Source of the DNA: Spiribacter halobius
GTDB lineage: Bacteria > Pseudomonadota > Gammaproteobacteria > Nitrococcales > Nitrococcaceae
NCBI RefSeq assembly: GCF_020883455.1
Contig: NZ_CP086615.1
Location: forward strand, 992,001-1,056,000
DNA: 64,000 bases
Direction of reading: 5' to 3'
Of the stretch, positions 2,887-62,720 are shown one piece after another; positions within the stretch are counted from its first letter, which is position 1; each line of letters begins with the position of its first letter. Made by a program: the position numbers and the translations under genes. The notes under the pieces are model-generated. The model saw only the letters and a program-made list of their open reading frames with translations, had not been told where the DNA came from and did not search any database.

Positions 2887-2925
2887 CCCCGCGCACCCCT
2901 TGCGGTTAATCAGCCGCTGTTTTTC

Positions 2926-3017
2926 AACACAACGACACCACGGACACAACGTTACACAACGCCGGAAAGTTTGATTCCCGACGTGGTGTCTCGTTGTGTC
3001 CGTGGTGTCGTTGTGTT
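2926..3017. repeat. Inverted-repeat element, CACAACGA-word family
   Basis: Two perfect 26-base arms (2926-2951 and 2992-3017) are built of repeated words such as CACAACGA and GGACACAAC and enclose a 40-base spacer. The element lies between the DUF1631 gene and the acyltransferase gene. Related words recur at 32401-32720. There is no ORF in it. It could form a long hairpin, but no T-run follows that would make it a classical terminator. Confidence 0.85.
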
Positions 3018-3087
3018 TAAAGGCGGCGTTAATAAAGGCCATGGCGCTTGAAGCGCAGGCCGGCGTGTGCCGGTAGGGAGGATTTCG

Positions 3088-29110: not shown

Positions 29111-30403
29111 ATGATGAGGCGGTGCGTGGCGGTCGATGACCTGGTGCCGGGGCTCTATGTGGCGGAGCTCGATCGCCCGTGGCTGGAGACGCCGTTCCTG
29201 TTCCAGGGCTTCGTCGTGGAGGACGAGGCGGCGCTACGGACCCTGCGGGAATACTGCCGCCATGTCTACGTCGACCCGGAACGCTCCCGCCCCGAGGCGC
29301 TGCGGCGGGTGCCGCCGGCGGCCTCGCCGCCGCCGGCCCGCGTCACGCGGTTGCGCGGGGCGCCCCGGGTCGTGGAGCCGGGTCACGCTGACGTGGTGCG
29401 GGCCTTCGGCGAGGCGCCGCAGCCCTCCGGCAACGAGTTCCGGGCACTGCTGCGCCTGGCACGGGACGTCCGCGGGCGCAGTCGGCGCATCGTCGACCGC
29501 ATCTTCCGGGACGTCCGGCTCGGCCGCAGTGTGGATACCGCCGAGGTGCGCGAGATCATGCGCGACCTGGTCGCCGTGGTGACCGAGAACGCCAGCGCCT
29601 CGCTGTGGCTGACCAACCTGCGCAAGCGCGACGAGTACACCTCGATCCACAGCATGAACGTGTGCGTGCTGGCGCTGGCCTTCGGCCGCCACCTCGGCCT
29701 GCGCCGACACGATCTCGAAGAGCTGGGCACCGGGGCCATACTGCACGACGTCGGCAAGGTGCGTACGCCGGACGAGATCCTCAACAAGCAGGAACGCCTG
29801 ACCGAGGCGGAAATGGCCATCGTCCGCCGTCATCCGGAGGACGGCTACCGGCTGCTGCAGCCCACCGGGGCGCTGCCCGAGGCGGCCTTGCAGATCGTGC
29901 GCCTGCACCACGAGCGGATCGACGGCAGCGGCTATCCGCTCGGCCTCGCGGGCGAGCAGATCCCGCAGCCGGTGCTCATCGCCGGCATCTGCGATGTCTA
30001 CGATGCCATGACCAGCGACCGGCCCTACCGCAAGGGCGTGCCGGCGGATCGGGTGCTGCGCATGCTCTACGATCGCGCCGAGTTCGACTTCGGTCAGGCC
30101 CTGACGGAGGGATTCATCCGCTGCCTGGGCATCTACCCGCCGGGCTGTCTGGTGCAGCTGGACGACAATGCCCTGGCGGTGGTGGTGACCGCGGACCCTC
30201 ATGCCCGGCTGCGCCCGGTGGTGATGCTGGTGCGCGATGCCGAGGGGGCGCTCTGCCGCCGCCGGACGCTGCGCAATCTCGCTGCCATGGCCGCGGAGAG
30301 CGATCGCCCCGGCCGGGGCTGCAACGTCCGCCGGGTGCTCAACCCCGCGGACCACGACGTCGACATCGCCGCGGTTCTCGCCGCCGACCTCGCCACGCGC
30401 TAG
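29111..30403 (+). CDS. HD-GYP domain c-di-GMP phosphodiesterase with DUF3391 N-terminus
   Basis: This protein of about 430 residues starts with a DUF3391-like region (VDDLVPGLYVAELDRPWLETPF), then a helical linker, then an HD-GYP domain: HSMNVCVLALAFGRHLGL, the metal-binding pair HDVGK, and the signature HHERIDGSGYP with DVYDAMTSDRPYRKG. All catalytic residues of the class are present, so it should hydrolyse cyclic di-GMP in the cytoplasm. Of two upstream ATGs I chose 29111, after AGCGGAG. The stop codon TAG lies at the first bases of a 180-bp repeat element. Confidence 0.9.
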   Translation: MMRRCVAVDDLVPGLYVAELDRPWLETPFLFQGFVVEDEAALRTLREYCRHVYVDPERSRPEALRRVPPAASPPPARVTRLRGAPRVVEPGHADVVRAFGEAPQPSGNEFRALLRLARDVRGRSRRIVDRIFRDVRLGRSVDTAEVREIMRDLVAVVTENASASLWLTNLRKRDEYTSIHSMNVCVLALAFGRHLGLRRHDLEELGTGAILHDVGKVRTPDEILNKQERLTEAEMAIVRRHPEDGYRLLQPTGALPEAALQIVRLHHERIDGSGYPLGLAGEQIPQPVLIAGICDVYDAMTSDRPYRKGVPADRVLRMLYDRAEFDFGQALTEGFIRCLGIYPPGCLVQLDDNALAVVVTADPHARLRPVVMLVRDAEGALCRRRTLRNLAAMAAESDRPGRGCNVRRVLNPADHDVDIAAVLAADLATR

Positions 30404-30581
30404 CCCGGATCGCTCACCGATTCGCGGCTGCGGCCGCGGATCTGGCGGGCAGGCCGGCGTTGCGCTCGGCCCGGGTGCTCGACGTACTGTCGAGTACGCC
30501 TGCGCGCCCGGACTCTCCCGCGCCTTGTCCTGCCCGCCAGATCCGCGCCCTCGCTTCGCGAATCGGTGAGCGATCCGGGCT
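30402..30581. repeat. 180-bp inverted-repeat element, copy 1
   Basis: The element starts AGCCCGGATCGCTCACCG and ends with the reverse complement; the first 25 bases of each arm match perfectly, and a second matching block (GATCTGGCGGGCAGG) follows in both arms. A central hairpin CTCGAC-GTACT-GTCGAG is present. Full copies lie at 51800-52246 (with internal additions) and 61681-61860. It contains no gene. It is the size of a MITE but encodes nothing, and no target duplication is evident. Confidence 0.88.
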
Positions 30582-30591
30582 AGTGCACAGC

Positions 30592-31637: not shown

Positions 31638-32401
31638 ACCGGCTGCCGGCGGAGCTTGAGGTCGCCGGGCAGGCGCTGCCGATAGTCCTGCGCCGCAGCC
31701 GCCGCCGCACGGTGGCGCTGCATCTGCTGCCCGGCCCGGAGCTGCAGGTGCGGGCACCGCGACACTGTCCGGAGTCGGTGCTGGTGGGTTTTCTGTTCTC
31801 GCGCCGGGGGTGGATCCAGCGCCATCTGCAGCGCCTGCCGCCGCCGGCGCCGCAGAACGAATACCGGGCCGGCGAGGCGCATCCGCTGCTCGGGCGGGCC
31901 TACCCCCTGGCGCCGCTGCAGGCGCCGCGGCGTCGGGTGCGGCTGGCCGACGGCAGGCTGCGGGTGGCGGTGCCGGCGCCGGGGGATTCGGAGCAGGTGG
32001 CGCGGGCGCTGCAGGCCTGGTATCGGGCGGAGGCGGCCCGTGTCTTCCAGGAGCGCCTTGAGCACTGGGGGCCGCTCGCCGCCGCGCGCATCGGCACGCC
32101 ACCGGCGCCCAGGCTGCGCCTGCGGCGCATGCGCCGGCGCTGGGGCAGCTGCACCGGCAGCGGCGTGGTCACCCTCAACACGCGGCTGGTGGAACGCTGC
32201 CGCTGCCTGATCGACTACGTCCTGGTCCACGAGCTCTGCCATCTGCGCGAGCTCAACCACTCGCCGCGCTTCCACGCCCTGGTCACCGAGCTCATGCCCG
32301 ACTGGCGCACCCACAGCGAGGCCCTGGACCGCGGGGCGCTTGTCCTGTCTCCGGGTTGCACCGGGACGGCCTGCACTGTGCCCGGAACCGTCGGGGATTG
32401 A
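31634..32401 (+). CDS. YgjP/DUF45-type zinc metalloprotease
   Basis: This 255-residue protein has the metallopeptidase motif HELCHLRELNH (the HEXXH zinc site plus a third His), preceded by RRRWGSC and VTLNTRLV, as in the YgjP/SprT-like M48-related family. It probably acts in the cytoplasm; its substrate is unknown. It is translationally coupled to srkA. The last residues (GCTGTACTVPGTVGD) and the stop codon come from a sequence that is repeated at 32549-32580, so the natural C-terminus may have been altered by the repeat. Confidence 0.88.
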   Translation: MNRLPAELEVAGQALPIVLRRSRRRTVALHLLPGPELQVRAPRHCPESVLVGFLFSRRGWIQRHLQRLPPPAPQNEYRAGEAHPLLGRAYPLAPLQAPRRRVRLADGRLRVAVPAPGDSEQVARALQAWYRAEAARVFQERLEHWGPLAAARIGTPPAPRLRLRRMRRRWGSCTGSGVVTLNTRLVERCRCLIDYVLVHELCHLRELNHSPRFHALVTELMPDWRTHSEALDRGALVLSPGCTGTACTVPGTVGD

Positions 32402-32720
32402 ACACAACGACACAACCGACACAAAGGTGCACAACGGGGAATTGGGTGGGACTAGGTCGGGCACGGCCGAAGGCAGTGTTCGACGTCTTCGGCCGCTATG
32501 CCCAGAGTCCCCTGAGTCGCACACCGCTGCGAGGTGCACCAGCTACCTCTGCATTTTGCCCGGGGCCGTCGGGGATTAAACACAACGACACAACGAGCAC
32601 AAAGGTGCACAACGTGGGAAGCGGGTTGGATTCGGTCTGGAACGGCCGAAGGCAGTGTGCGACCTGGTCCAATCCAATTCTCCGTTGTGCACCTTTGTGT
32701 CCGTTGTGTCGTTGTGTTTA
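32371..32720. repeat. CACAACGA-word element with a 110-bp direct duplication
   Basis: The 377-bp gap between ygjP and typA (32402-32778) has no gene. It holds two direct copies (about 32371-32484 and 32549-32663, offset 178-179) of a block with the ygjP 3' end, the words ACACAACGACACAAC and ACAAAGGTGCACAACG, and CGGCCGAAGGCAGTGT. One inverted copy of the words follows (32683-32720); its 38 bases match the second left copy (32577-32614) with two differences. It belongs to the same family as the element at 2926-3017. Confidence 0.85.
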
Positions 32721-32778
32721 AAGCCCCACGCCGGAGCACGACCCGGCGCCCGGCAAGGGGTCGGACGGGGTCGAAGGG

Positions 32779-42026: not shown

Positions 42027-42179
42027 GCGCTGCTCCAGCAACAGGAGCCCAGTTCAAGGTCCGCAGTTCAAGGTTCAAAGTCCGCATCCGCACCGCCGTG
42101 CGGAGAGAATCTTTGAACTTGCAACCTTGAACTCGGAACTCGCGATCACTGACCGCGCCTTGCGCGGTCAGTGATCGCG
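42000..42179. repeat. TTCAAGG-word element bordered by two gene-end palindromes
   Basis: The left palindrome has 42000-42022 and 42028-42050 as perfect 23-base arms around TTGAG, covering the last codons of the protease gene. The middle (42051-42140) has imperfect arms of TTCAAGGT and TTCAAAG words around a GC-rich centre. The right palindrome has 42141-42158 and 42162-42179 as 18-base arms with a 3-base loop, covering the last codons and stop of ispA. The two genes converge on it. Confidence 0.85.
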
Positions 42180-43341: not shown

Positions 43342-45553
<2,212 letters not shown>

Positions 45554-48942: not shown

Positions 48943-50322
48943 CTAGGCCTCGTCGCCGTCGAGCTTGCGGTAGAGGGTGCGGCGGCCGATGCCGAGGATG
49001 TCGGCGGCGCGGCGCTTGTTGCCGTCCACGGCCTCCATGACCTGCTGGATGTAGCGGCGTTCCACCTCGGCCAGCGGCGGCAGCTCGCTGGCCGGGGTCA
49101 GGCCGTCCGGCAGGGCAGAGGGCTCGCTGGTGCCAGGGCGGCGGACCCGCTCCGGGAGATCGGCGGGCTGGACGCTGTCGCCATCGGCGAACGTCACCGC
49201 CCGCTCGATGGCGTTGGCGAGCTCGCGCACATTCCCCGGGAAGGCGTAGCGTCGGAGGCAAGCCAGGGTCTCCGGGGCGAGGCGCGGCGTGGCGCGGCCG
49301 AGGCGCTGGGCGAACCGGGACACCAGCCGGGCGGCCAGCAGGTCGACGTCGTCTCCGCGCTCGCGCAGCGGCGGCACCGGCAGGCGGAAGGTCTCGAGGC
49401 GGTAGAACAGATCGGCGCGGAAGTCTCCCCGCTCGACGGCCGCCTCCAGGTCCTGATGGGTCGCCGCGACGATGCGCAGATCCACCGCCTGCTCGCGGTC
49501 GGCGCCGACCGGGCGTACACGGCTGTCCTCCAGCACCCGTAGCAGCTTTGCCTGCAGCGCCGCGGGCATCTCCGCGATCTCGTCCAGGAACAGGGTGCCC
49601 CCGTCGGCGGCCTGGAACAGCCCGGCCCGGGCACGGTGGGCGCCGGTGAAGGCACCCTGCACATGGCCGAAGAATTCGCTCTCCAGCAGCTCGGCCGGCA
49701 CGCCGGCGCAATTGACGGCGATGAAGGGGCCCGCCTGTCGCGGGCTCTCAGCATGCACCGCGCGCGCAACCAGCTCCTTGCCCGTGCCGCTCTCGCCGGT
49801 GACGAGCACCGGCCCCTCGCCGGCGCCGATGCGGCGGATGCCGGTGAAAAGGGCCTGCATGGGCCGGCTGCGGCCGATCAGGCCGTGGAAGTCGTCTCCG
49901 CCGAGCAGCGCCTCGAATTCACTCACCCGCCGGCGCAGCCTGCGATGCTCCAGCACGCGGCCGACGCCGAGCAGCAGGTGCTCGAGATCCAGCGGCTTGG
50001 TAAGGAAGTCGTCGGCTCCCGCCTTCAGCGCCTCCACCGCCTGGCTGATGGTGCCGAAGGCGGTGATGACGATAAAGCCGACGGCATCGCCGCCGCTGCC
50101 CTCGCGGGTCGCCCGCAGCAGGGCCATGCCGTCGCTGCCGGGCAGCCGCAGGTCGCTGACAACCAGCTCCACCGGGTCCGAGTCGAGCACCTCCCGGGCC
50201 GCCGGCGCGGTTCCGACCGCTGTCACCGTGTAGCCGGCCTCGCGCAGCTCCTCCACCAGCAGGCCGCGCAGGCTGTCGTCGTCCTCCACGACGAGGATGC
50301 GGGCGCCATCGGTCTCACTCAT
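48943..50322 (-). CDS. NtrC-family sigma-54 response regulator
   Basis: This 459-residue regulator has a receiver domain (VVEDDD, phosphoacceptor Asp in LVVSDLRLPGSDG, LTKPLD), an AAA+ domain with Walker A GESGTGKE, the sigma-54 loop GAFTGA, Walker B TLFLDEIAEMP, and a C-terminal Fis-type helix-turn-helix (NKRRAADILGIGRRTLYRKL). It activates sigma-54 promoters. It overlaps its kinase gene by 8 bases. A sigma-54-like promoter lies about 2 kb away before the DUF4168 gene and is a candidate target. Confidence 0.93.
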   Translation of the reverse strand: MSETDGARILVVEDDDSLRGLLVEELREAGYTVTAVGTAPAAREVLDSDPVELVVSDLRLPGSDGMALLRATREGSGGDAVGFIVITAFGTISQAVEALKAGADDFLTKPLDLEHLLLGVGRVLEHRRLRRRVSEFEALLGGDDFHGLIGRSRPMQALFTGIRRIGAGEGPVLVTGESGTGKELVARAVHAESPRQAGPFIAVNCAGVPAELLESEFFGHVQGAFTGAHRARAGLFQAADGGTLFLDEIAEMPAALQAKLLRVLEDSRVRPVGADREQAVDLRIVAATHQDLEAAVERGDFRADLFYRLETFRLPVPPLRERGDDVDLLAARLVSRFAQRLGRATPRLAPETLACLRRYAFPGNVRELANAIERAVTFADGDSVQPADLPERVRRPGTSEPSALPDGLTPASELPPLAEVERRYIQQVMEAVDGNKRRAADILGIGRRTLYRKLDGDEA

Positions 50323-51793
50323 GCTCGGGTTCCTTCACGTCTGCGGCCCGGCCCTCGGCCGGCAGGATGATCTCGAAGCGGGCGCCGCCAAAGGGACTCT
50401 CGCCCACGCGGATACGGCCGCCATGGGCCTCCACGGCCCCGTGGACCACCGCGAGCCCGAGCCCCGTGCCGCTGCCGACGGGCTTGCTGGTGAAGAAGGG
50501 CTCGAACAGCCGTTCCTGGGCATCGGGGTCGATGCCGGGGCCGTCGTCGTCCACCCGCAGCACGCACTCCGCCCCGTGCTGCGCGACCCCGACGCGTATC
50601 TCGCCACCGGGGCTTGCCTGGAGCGCGTTCTGCACCAGGTTGGCCAGGGCCTCCTCCAGCCGCGTGGGGTCGGCGTGAAGGGTGAGCCCCTCGCCGCCGT
50701 CGTCCAGCGCGAGGCGCGCGCCGGCGGCCTCCGGCATGGCCTGGGCTCGCTCGATCACGCCCTCCAGCAACGGGCGGATCTCCAGCCGGCGGGGTCGCAG
50801 CGGGCTGCGCCGGGCGAAGTTCATCAGCTCGCGGACGATCCGGGACATGCGCTGGACCTCGCCACGGATCGATTCCAGCGCCTCGCGTACCGGCGGCGCC
50901 AGGTCCGACCGGCGCAACGCGCGCTGGGCGCGCCCGTCCACGACGCTCAGGGGCGTTCCGAGCTCGTGGGCAACGCCGGCGGCGAGCTCGCCCACGGCGG
51001 CGAGCTTGCGCGACTCCCGCAGGTCCGCCTCCAGACTCTCCTGCCGCTCCCGGCGGCGCGCGATCTCGGCCTCGGAGCGGGCCAGGCTCTCCAGCATGCT
51101 GTTGAAGCCCCGGGCCAGCTCGCGGATCTCCGCCGGCCCCCCGGGCCGGGCCCGATGCGAGCGCGCACCGGTGGCGACTGCCTCCATGCTGCGGCTGAGC
51201 TCCCGCAGCGGGCCGCCAATGGCCCAGCGGTGGCCGATGATGACCACCGCGGAGAGCAGCAGCGCCAGGAGCCCGAGCCCGATGGCGCCGCCGCCACGGA
51301 TCAGCGCCAGGGTGTCGCGGAAGTCGTCGGCGTGGCGCGTGATCTGGAGCAGGGCGGCGAACCGGCCGCCGGCGTCGCTCAGCGGGAGGAAGTAGACGTA
51401 CAGTGCCTCGCCGTCGACCCGGGTGTATTCGCTGCCCTCCTCGCCACGGAGGGCCAGGGCCTCGATCTCGCGGGTGGGGAGGGCCCTGGCGCCCGCACCG
51501 GCGCCGGCGACCAGCTGCCCCTCGCGCCCGAACACATGCACGCCATAGACCCGGCCGAAGGAGAAGGCCGAGCGCAGCATCTCCTGCATGCGGTAAGGCT
51601 CGCCGCGCTGGATGGCGCGGCTCAGCGGGAACTGCAGCGCCCGGGCGATCAGCTCGATATCCTCGCGCATGCGCGCCTCGGCCTGACGCTCCAGCACAGA
51701 CAGACCCACCGAGCCCACCGCGCCTATCATGAAGGTGAGCGGCACGACGACGAAGGCGATGAGGGCGGCACTGAGGCGCAGCCGGGACAGCAT
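50315..51793 (-). CDS. Membrane sensor histidine kinase, partner of the NtrC-family regulator
   Basis: This kinase of about 492 residues has one N-terminal transmembrane helix (LSAALIAFVVVPLTFMIGAVGSVGLSV), a periplasmic domain of about 130 residues, a second helix (GGAIGLGLLALLLSAVVIIGH), HAMP, HisKA (GVAHELGTPLSVVDG) and HATPase (NLVQNALQASPGG, GTGLGLAVVHGAV). The ATG at 51793 is preferred; an in-frame ATG at 51808 lies inside the neighbouring repeat. The signal is unknown. It is cotranscribed with the regulator gene. Confidence 0.92.
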   Translation of the reverse strand: MLSRLRLSAALIAFVVVPLTFMIGAVGSVGLSVLERQAEARMREDIELIARALQFPLSRAIQRGEPYRMQEMLRSAFSFGRVYGVHVFGREGQLVAGAGAGARALPTREIEALALRGEEGSEYTRVDGEALYVYFLPLSDAGGRFAALLQITRHADDFRDTLALIRGGGAIGLGLLALLLSAVVIIGHRWAIGGPLRELSRSMEAVATGARSHRARPGGPAEIRELARGFNSMLESLARSEAEIARRRERQESLEADLRESRKLAAVGELAAGVAHELGTPLSVVDGRAQRALRRSDLAPPVREALESIRGEVQRMSRIVRELMNFARRSPLRPRRLEIRPLLEGVIERAQAMPEAAGARLALDDGGEGLTLHADPTRLEEALANLVQNALQASPGGEIRVGVAQHGAECVLRVDDDGPGIDPDAQERLFEPFFTSKPVGSGTGLGLAVVHGAVEAHGGRIRVGESPFGGARFEIILPAEGRAADVKEPEHE

Positions 51794-51799
51794 CAGGCT

Positions 51800-52246
51800 A
51801 GCCCGCATCTCTCACCGATTCGGGGCTGCGGTCGCGGATCTGGCGAGCAGTACTGCGTTGCGCTCGGTCCGGGTGCTCGACGTACTGTCGAGTACGCCTG
51901 CGCGCCCGGATTCTCCCGCGCGTTGGGCAGCGCGGAGCCCTTCCCGCGGGCCTCTGGCCGCACAGCGCGTGTGCAGACAAGGCGCGCTGCGCAGCGCTGT
52001 ACCGCGGTACAGTCAAGCAGCGCAACGCCGGCTGCGCGCGCGCTGTACGGCCCCGCAGGGCGCTTCAGAGCGGCGCCCTGGACTGCGTTGGCGTTCTTGC
52101 AAAGGGCTACGGCCATTCGCTGCGAACGCCGCCTTGCCAGGTCGCCGCTCTGAAGCGCAGAGGCCCGCGGGAAGGGTTCCGCGCTGCCCCTCTCCTGCCC
52201 GCCATCTCCACGACCTCGCTTCGCGAATCGGTGAGAAATGCGGGCT
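51800..52246. repeat. 180-bp element, copy 2, enlarged by nested inverted repeats
   Basis: The outer ends (AGCCCGCATCTCTCACCG and complement) are those of the 180-bp element. Inside lie 32-base arms at 51925-51956 and 52158-52189 (one mismatch), within these 22-base arms at 52060-52081 and 52137-52158 (one mismatch), and within these GGCGTTC/GAACGCC at 52090 and 52124. CTGTACCGCGGTACAG is a separate palindrome. No convincing gene lies in the 600-bp gap 51794-52393. Confidence 0.85.
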
Positions 52247-52328
52247 ACTGTGTCATGCTGGCAGTATGTGTCAATAAGGCACATTCACATCGGCACATTG
52301 TGGCTGGCAGGTGATGGCACGACGCCGG

Positions 52329-52393: not shown

Positions 52394-52744
52394 ATGACTC
52401 TGCGACCCATGATGGCGGCCCTGGCACTGCTGCTCGCGCTCGCCCTCGGCGGCCCGGTGCTGGCCCAGAACGACGAAGGCGGCGCCGGCGGCTACTCCGA
52501 GGAAACGCTGCAGCAGTTCGTCGAGGCCCACAGCGGGGTGCTGGCCATCCGCGACGAGTACACCCAGCGGCTTCAGGAGGCCGACGACCGCGAGCAGGCA
52601 ATGGCGCTCCAGGAGGAGGCCAACGAGCGCATGGTCAACGCCGTCACCGACACCGGTCTTTCGGTGGAGGAATACGGCGAGATCGCCCGCGCCGCCTCGG
52701 GTGATACCGAGCTCTCGGAGCGCATCCAGGACATGATGGAGTAG
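52394..52744 (+). CDS. DUF4168 family exported protein
   Basis: This 116-residue protein has a Sec signal peptide (MMAALALLLALALGGPVLA, cleavage before QND) and a DUF4168-type helical domain (LQQFVEAHSGVLAIRDEYTQRL, VNAVTDTGLSVEEYGEIARAA). It is acidic and periplasmic or secreted; its role is unknown. GGGAGGA lies 8 bases before the ATG. Its promoter looks sigma-54 dependent. The last 13 coding bases are mirrored after the stop codon. Confidence 0.85.
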   Translation: MTLRPMMAALALLLALALGGPVLAQNDEGGAGGYSEETLQQFVEAHSGVLAIRDEYTQRLQEADDREQAMALQEEANERMVNAVTDTGLSVEEYGEIARAASGDTELSERIQDMME

Positions 52745-52946
52745 CGTCTTGCGCTACTCCATCATGAGTTGCAAGTGACAAGTAGCAAGTTGCAAGGGAC
52801 GGCCTCGATCAGGAATCGAGGCACTCGGGGCTCCCGGCGGCGCTCTCGTCTTGCAACTTGCAACTTTGAACTTGCAACTACGACTTCACCGGCATGGTGA
52901 TCTAGGCCGCACCAGCGGCCTAGATCACCATGCCGGTGAAGTCGTA
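52732..52946. repeat. CAAGTTG-word element bordered by two gene-end palindromes
   Basis: The left palindrome has 15-base arms (52732-52746 and 52752-52766) with loop TCTTG, covering the end and stop of the DUF4168 gene. The middle (52767-52878) has AGTTGCAAGTGAC words, a GC-rich spacer with its own hairpin, and complementary words. The right palindrome has 32-base perfect arms (52879-52910 and 52915-52946), loop ACCA, covering the end and stop of the reverse-strand FimX-like gene. Confidence 0.87.
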
Positions 52947-59466: not shown

Positions 59467-59629
59467 AGTTGCAAGTTGCAAGTTGCAAGTGACAAGACCA
59501 GCTTGGCCTGTCGCTCTGTGGGAGGGTTTCGCCCCCAGCTCGCAACCTGTTACTCGCCACTTGCAACGTGCAACTTGCAACTTGTTACTCGGATCCGGAG
59601 CTGGGGGCGCGCCCGCGCCCCCAGCTCCG
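59467..59629. repeat. CAAGTTG-word element at the end of epmA
   Basis: The left words (AGTTGCAAGTTGCAAG, from 59467) and the right words (59541-59590) are complementary around a short spacer. The right side is bordered by a palindrome with 16-base arms (59596-59611 and 59614-59629) that lies in the last codons of the next, reverse-strand gene. That gene's TAA is inside the right-hand words. Confidence 0.82.
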
Positions 59630-61680: not shown

Positions 61681-61860
61681 AGCCCGCATCTCTCACCGAT
61701 TCACGGCTGCGGCCGTGGATCTGGCGGGCAGTCCGGCGTTGCGCTCGGCCCGGGTGCTCGACGTACTGTCGAGTACGCCTGCGCGCCCGGACTCTCCCGC
61801 GCCTTGTCCTGCCCGCCATCTCCACGCCCTCGCTTCGCGAATCAGTGAGAGATGCGGGCT
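61681..61860. repeat. 180-bp inverted-repeat element, copy 3
   Basis: It starts AGCCCGCATCTCTCACCG and ends GTGAGAGATGCGGGCT, with the same central hairpin CTCGAC-GTACT-GTCGAG and the same length as copy 1. Its inner hairpin reads CACGG-CTG-CGGCCGTG where copy 1 has CGCGG-CTG-CGGCCGCG. It overlaps the 3' end of psd. Confidence 0.88.
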
Positions 61861-62720
61861 AGCGTCTCGCCGAGGCGAACCGGCGCTTCGGGCCGCAGGC
61901 CGGCGTTCCAGCGGACCTGGCCCGGGCCGAACGCGAGGATCACCGTGGAGCCGAGATTGAAGCGGCCGAGCTCCTCGCCGCGCGCGAGTGCCGGACCGCG
62001 GTCGCCGTAGTCCCAGGTGCGCAGCGTCTTCGCGGCGGGCGGCGTGATCTCGCCTGCCCAGACCGTCTCGATGCTGCCGACACCGATGGCCCCGACCAGC
62101 ACGACGGCGAACGGCCCGCGGGCCCCGTCGAACAGGCAGACGACGCGCTCGTTGCGGGCGAACAGCTCCGGCACCGCGCGCACCAGCGGTGGCGAGACGC
62201 CGAACAGCCGGCCGGGTACGTGCAGCATGCGCCGCAGCCGTCCGGCGCAGGGCATGTGCACCCGGTGGTAGTCCCTGGGCGAGAGGTAGAGCGTGGCGTA
62301 GGCGCCATCCCGCAGTCCTGCGGCGAGGCCAGGGTCACCGCCGAGGAGCGCGGTGAGGGTGTAATGCTGGCCCTTCGCCTGCATGAGCTGCTCGCCCTCG
62401 AGGCGCCCGTGGGCGCTAAGGCGGCCGTCCACCGGGCTCGTGACCGCATCCGCGGTCGCCGGCTGCGGCCGCACGCCGGGGCGCAGCGCCCGGGTGAAGA
62501 AGGCATTGAAGCTTGGATAGGCGGCCGGGTCCGGCTCCGCCGCCTCGCCGAGGTCTACGGCATAGAGCCGGCGGAACGCGCCGATCAGCACCGACTTCCA
62601 CGGCCGCCAGGGCCAGCGCGCGGCCCGGTGCACGCAGCGGGAGAGGGCGTGCTGAGGCAGCATGGCCAGAAGCCGGGCGAACAGGCGGTCGGCCGCGCTT
62701 GCGGCCTCGGGAGCGGGCAC
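61842..62720 (-). CDS. psd: Phosphatidylserine decarboxylase
   Basis: This 292-residue inner-membrane enzyme makes phosphatidylethanolamine. The self-cleavage motif LGST (Ser258) yields the pyruvoyl group; other family blocks are PSFNAFFTRALRPGVRP, SPVDGRLS and LYLSPRDYHRVHMP. The start is a GTG at 62720. The last residues (ARISH) and the TGA are translated from the terminal repeat of the 180-bp element. It lies 5 bases downstream of the SCO1 gene. Confidence 0.95.
   Translation of the reverse strand: MPAPEAASAADRLFARLLAMLPQHALSRCVHRAARWPWRPWKSVLIGAFRRLYAVDLGEAAEPDPAAYPSFNAFFTRALRPGVRPQPATADAVTSPVDGRLSAHGRLEGEQLMQAKGQHYTLTALLGGDPGLAAGLRDGAYATLYLSPRDYHRVHMPCAGRLRRMLHVPGRLFGVSPPLVRAVPELFARNERVVCLFDGARGPFAVVLVGAIGVGSIETVWAGEITPPAAKTLRTWDYGDRGPALARGEELGRFNLGSTVILAFGPGQVRWNAGLRPEAPVRLGETLARISH

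Follow-up and report, generated by a model that had tools for sequence, protein, structure and literature searches.

How did a block of inverted repeats, one inside another, come to lie at 51799–52247 of the window, the whole 64,000-nt stretch of Spiribacter halobius DNA analysed here, and what keeps its arms matched? The block stands between a divergent sensor histidine kinase gene (HAMP, HisKA, HATPase; 50315–51808) and a DUF4168 gene (from 52394). We conclude that it is very probably a non-autonomous MITE within a MITE, which arose by one insertion and then multiplied, the inner element being inverted at least twice along the way. At the gene border, window positions 51799–51808, the left end of the outer element supplies the histidine kinase gene with an in-frame ATG (GGTGAGAG-ATG-CGG), and GGTGAGATATG is present at many other outer ends.

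Architecture and predicted fold of the block

The features of the block, together with two empty copies of the outer element in the window, are as follows.

51799–52247, plus strand: composite nested element with a flanking TA on each side (51799–51800 and 52246–52247)
51802–52244, plus strand: outer MITE of the composite, CCCG...CGGG
51802–51925, plus strand: outer MITE, left part, which carries a hairpin of its own and ends in GTTG (51922–51925, a decayed copy of the CTTG target)
51926–52188, plus strand: inner MITE, GGCAGC...GCTGCC, which also occurs free with 4-bp YTAR duplications
51925–51956, plus strand: left 32-nt arm of the inner element
51956–52052, no strand assigned: hairpin A of the inner element, with 21-nt arms, overlooked in the earlier note
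52060–52158, no strand assigned: hairpin B of the inner element, with 22-nt arms, including the 7-nt pair 52090–52096/52124–52130
52158–52189, minus strand: right 32-nt arm of the inner element
52189–52192, plus strand: CCTC, the other copy of the CTTG target, likewise decayed; most sister copies have CATC here
52193–52244, plus strand: right part of the outer MITE
30402–30583, plus strand: empty outer MITE, copy 1
61681–61862, plus strand: empty outer MITE, copy 3

The outermost arms (51799–51822/52224–52247; 24 nt, 96% match) enclose the hairpin of the outer element, on the left, and the insert. The insert is bounded by the 32-nt arms (51925–51956/52158–52189; 97% match), which enclose both hairpins A and B, placed head to head: an additional pair of 21 nt at 51956–51976/52032–52052 (86%) is next to the 22-nt pair at 52060–52081/52137–52158 (95%). 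The 7-nt pair, GGCGTTC/GAACGCC, was read off the sequence. The insert as a whole is 69% alike to its own reverse complement.

The predicted single-strand fold of 51799–52247 has a free energy of −184 kcal/mol compared with −119 ± 4.8 for shuffled sequences, a gain of 65 kcal/mol (z = −13.6), and the longest arm with an exact match measures 19 nt, where simulation gave a mean of 9.5 and a maximum of 13. A chance origin of the nested inverted repeats is excluded. The earlier note had described four concentric layers of arms. The arms are indeed present within a few bases of the positions it gave, and beyond chance, but the layers are not concentric throughout: the 32-nt arms hold two side-by-side hairpins, the second of which has the 7-nt arms as its upper stem. 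Nor does the insert occupy the centre of the outer element, as had been supposed; it sits at about 70% of the outer length, off-centre because the outer element has its own hairpin to the left of the insert.

Two element families and a single nested origin

Copies of both elements were enumerated by pattern searches with up to three mismatches. The core pattern of the outer element occurs at 52 places in the genome, and 53 outer copies were read, 37 of them empty and, counted from CCCG to CGGG, 176 bp long without exception. YTAR is favoured in the flanks, a TA being present to the left of 46/53 copies and to the right of 43/53; where the flanks are of the kind TTAG...CTAA, a TA duplication of 2 bp in a YTAR context is a better fit than one of 4 bp. 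Within 33 of the 53 copies the first 14 nt of both ends match exactly, in 13 different versions, while between different copies these ends match in only 15% of comparisons. One empty copy with the same CCTTG-TC junction was also found in another genus (G004, L081), and the empty form is therefore ancestral.

The inner element is found free at full length at four places in this genome and also in related genera, which in addition carry shorter versions of ∼52–58 bp and ∼170–200 bp with the same ends. Identical 4-bp flanks were seen for 12/20 free end pairs (CTAG, TTAA and, once, CAAG). As CAAG is not self-complementary, it represents a true direct duplication; it is the reverse complement of CTTG, the target in the outer element.

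Insertion of IS5 elements typically produces a YTAR duplication, YTAR being the reported IS5 motif (PMC10359306). The inner element resembles IS5-family MITEs in being short and multicopy, in having inverted ends that start with GGAAACGCTGA, in the 4-bp YTAR duplication (CTAG, TTAA) of its free copies and in the lack of an internal transposase gene, and we infer that its transposase belongs to the IS5 family. It differs from them in an interior made of two head-to-head hairpin modules and in that no IS with these ends was found, and the nested copies differ further in sitting in CTTG with altered ends. Inner (263 bp) and outer (176 bp) both have the hallmarks of MITEs: they are multicopy with terminal inverted repeats, they are flanked by target-site duplications at distinct sites (perfect in the above 12/20 for the inner, flanking TA for the outer), and they contain no transposase gene, being <450 bp, with the PF01609/PF05598 matches of the genome lying elsewhere. 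Those matches comprise one transposase family that is not the partner, its ends (CCAGGC.GTGTGAAAAC) being unrelated, a second family whose ends were not delimited, and a fragment. In the subset of genomes searched we detected neither a full-length IS with the inner ends GGAAACGCTGAACAATTC nor a pair of these ends ∼1 kb apart. The hairpin A module (CAAGGCGCGCTGCGCAGCGC...AAGCAGCGCAACG) is high-copy in another genus (g15: L062, L064, L065, L066), where its copies sit in elements with GGAAACACTGATTTATTC-type ends, a common interior module with different ends.

Both MITE families are new, although their kind is already known. BOX, ERIC and Correia repeats, like the nested pair, are palindromic repeats of bacterial intergenic regions that are modular or bear inserts; their sequences and ends are probably other than those of these MITEs. 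REP elements are described as palindromes of 20–40 bp (PMC3733652), and by that description they do not include the two elements here, which measure 176 and 263 bp and have terminal repeats as well as target duplications. The Tn3-derived TIMEs and TIME-COMPs (PMC4133298) are similar in that miniature non-autonomous elements build larger non-autonomous mosaics; a TIME-COMP, however, is bounded on both sides by miniature elements that enclose other DNA, whereas here one miniature lies inside another and the ends are of IS5 type.

The junctions record how the two elements were joined. Empty outers read CGCGC-CTTG-TCCTGCC, and filled ones CGCGC-GTTG-(inner)-CATC (or CCTC)-TCCTGCC. Full filled copies are 443–445 bp long, equal to 176 + 263–265 + 4 (267–269 bp added). 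The CTTG target is deduced from the empty copies and these lengths, the duplication itself being degraded in the nested copies. Since every nested copy with the parts intact has GTTG together with CATC or CCTC, the simplest reading is that the CTTG duplication decayed before the composite multiplied. In the tree the nested inners form one clade and the free inners another, each with support of 100/100. Their consensus sequences differ at 29 positions, of which 20 are accounted for by ten base pairs in which both partners changed; half of these pairs, five, lie within the 32-nt arms, and one of the five is G.T in the consensus. The symmetric arm changes are common to the nested copies. These comparisons demonstrate two separate families, the insertion site, the match in length and a single nested origin. 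The proposal of the earlier note that one palindromic element had been inserted into another is thus borne out by the empty outers, the free inners, the added 263 + 4 bp and the CTTG target; sought apart elsewhere in the genome, its arm pairs are found as the outer alone (the 37 empty 176-bp copies) and as the inner alone (the free copies).

A different history would have the inner element insert repeatedly and site-specifically, in either orientation, into empty outers whose hairpin it prefers, each nested copy being independent. The spread of nested copies over many loci, the occurrence of both inner orientations and the scatter of their outer parts among empties would fit such a history. 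We nevertheless regard it as very improbable: the degraded flanks are identical in outer coordinates irrespective of inner orientation, the nested inners form one clade separate from every free copy, no nested copy has free-type ends, and free inners sit at YTAR sites. In its simple form, one insertion per copy, it is refuted by the common degraded duplications and the single nested clade.

The same evidence of a single insertion event (a common degraded duplication and one clade) lends no support to the suggestion that hairpin centres are preferred targets. The CTTG occupies positions 121–124 of 176, at the edge of the stem on its 3′ strand, ∼32 nt past the apex loop (86–89), a position that rules out the apex as target. 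Free inners follow YTAR/CTAG sites, and three of the four full ones in the genome abut outer-type ends. In the 64-kb window CTAG is about tenfold depleted (base composition predicts 175 occurrences and 17 are present), and 5 of those present lie at outer-type MITE ends. Scarce CTAG and free inners at outer-type ends together explain the association of inner and outer better by rare CTAG-like targets carried on MITEs than by a preference for hairpin centres.

Multiplication and inversion of the composite

Six full nested copies were found (the window copy and L009–L013) along with three truncated ones (L018, L019, L023) and four loci with only a scar at the insertion site (L021, L022, L025, L026); all nested and scar copies are at different places. 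The inner element has the same orientation as the outer in the window copy, L009, L010 and L018, and the opposite one in L011, L012, L013, L019 and L023, and where the flanks are preserved either orientation lies between the same flanks. L010 and L011, of opposite orientations, are nearest relatives (99/95), and the starred branches of the tree require that orientation changed at least twice among the six full copies, which demonstrates recurrent inversion. Inversion within the 32-nt arms is the simple explanation of both orientations.

How the composite spread is less certain. The inner may have been passed between outers by gene conversion, that is by ectopic recombination in outer sequence, without transposition of the composite. 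This would agree with an identical junction in filled outers that do not cluster on the outer tree, a weak tree on which they are scattered among empties (9 changes compared with a shuffled mean of 9.3), and with short arms that have clearly been exchanged elsewhere in the family. However, the outer tree is poorly resolved and does not reject a single clade of filled outers (p-AU 0.13), and paired, recurrent changes at outer sites scatter copies even without conversion. We consider gene conversion a serious candidate, with a chance somewhat below even. One truncated copy (L023:721–942) has a deletion that runs from GCGTTGCGCT in the outer hairpin to the identical word in inner hairpin A, which points to recombination between similar modules of the outer and inner families.

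Whether the block is a fixed unit present in many genomes, the finding by which nested insertion was to be refuted in the earlier note, has a divided answer: every copy in this genome has the same junctions, but the inner element is flipped in some of them, and no other genome searched contains the block. Searches of relatives and members of the order, in two overlapping sets (59 and 54 genomes), and of plasmids and phages did not find the composite. G005 and G014 gave apparent matches to the junction, which by eye proved to be a free mini-element and a clpP-like coding sequence.

The history we favour, a single insertion followed by multiplication, would run as follows. A 263-bp MITE with IS5-type ends would have transposed once into CTTG in the stem of a 176-bp MITE copy, making a 4-bp duplication that later decayed to GTTG...CATC/CCTC. 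The resulting 443-bp composite would then have multiplied in this genome to at least nine sites, plus the four now reduced to scars, either through a putative transposase acting on the outer ends or by recombination with resident empty outers, and the inner segment would have inverted at least twice within its 32-nt arms. A single genome thus gives an order of events for nested bacterial MITEs: insert, decay, multiply, flip, scar. The nested pair is an uncommonly clear yet basically ordinary stacking of small mobile elements.

Paired changes in the arms

In both families the arms change in step. Among 23 inner copies, 44/99 pairs have two-sided changes, amounting to 196 two-sided cells compared with 55 in shuffles (0/500 reaching it) and at most 24 when the partner was slid. 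For the outer element, 37 empties of one genome gave 43 two-sided Watson-Crick cells as against 8.0 when shuffled (0/2000) and 1–6 in three slide controls. At least half of the types of two-sided change require a transversion. One-sided changes show no wobble excess in the inner element (18 G.T and 19 A.C types), and in the outer A.C cells outnumber G.T cells (35 to 9), many of these cells being shared copies of few changes. It is possible that the covariation stems instead from inherited subfamilies.

The very stable predicted fold and the strong covariation might suggest that the nested hairpins are kept as a functional RNA (a terminator, stability element or small RNA) and that compensation reflects selection on the transcript. 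Compensation in RNA is commonly held to run via G-U intermediates (PMC8794818), while the inner family has no wobble excess and transversions are needed by at least half of the two-sided types; many copies are truncated or scarred, and the block carries the hallmarks of mobile elements. No Rfam family matched at its gathering score, the only hit being RF04159, whose 27.5 bits compare with a threshold of 168. We find a role as RNA improbable. Hairpins between bacterial genes may thus covary strongly without being a functional RNA: two-sided changes dominate here without the wobble intermediates expected from RNA selection.

Another way to keep the arms matched would be a transposase that recognises folded DNA and so selects for paired ends. 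The outer two-sided changes fall mostly at the ends (positions 5–13), which speaks for such selection, but inner covariation also runs through the interior hairpins, far from the ends, and inversion of the spacer is left unexplained. We hold this to be rather unlikely.

Template switching is reported both to homogenise arms and to invert the spacer (PMC8604942), so one process could explain both the matched arms and the flips. Replication template switching between the arms would then underlie the homogenisation as well as the inversions, a reading for which we see the balance as about even. The broader view, that MITE arms are continually rewritten from each other here and in relatives and that the same process flips the inner element, we advance tentatively, at a shade under an even chance; it would account for arms that match in every copy although the sequences of different copies drift apart. 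Quasipalindrome template-switch mutation (PMC8604942, PMC8794818) likewise leaves inverted repeats with homogenised arms and inverted spacers. That process is described for short repeats in yeast genes and also for RNA genes, whereas here it would act on MITE families of bacteria, in which the arms are 32 nt long and the spacer is ∼200 nt. If this is right, both families are a natural, countable record of bacterial template switching, with hairpin covariation arising without RNA selection, and such families would allow the footprint of template switching to be measured in nature.

Other palindromic repeats are present in the window. A heptamer-rich element (AGTTGCAAGT...CTTGCAACTTGCAACT) occurs at 42051–42179, 45305–45460, 52732–52946 and 59467–59589, and perfect palindromes beside it copy the 3′ end of the adjacent gene including the stop codon. 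One such palindrome is of 31 nt (45305–45367), two flank a single element on both sides (15 nt at 52732–52766 and 32 nt at 52879–52946), and one is of 18 nt (42141–42179), where the match to a gene 3′ end is only putative. A separate, CACAACG-rich family of palindromic repeats lies at 2915–3028 and 32349–32730, with complementary arms of up to 89 nt that match at 82–90%.
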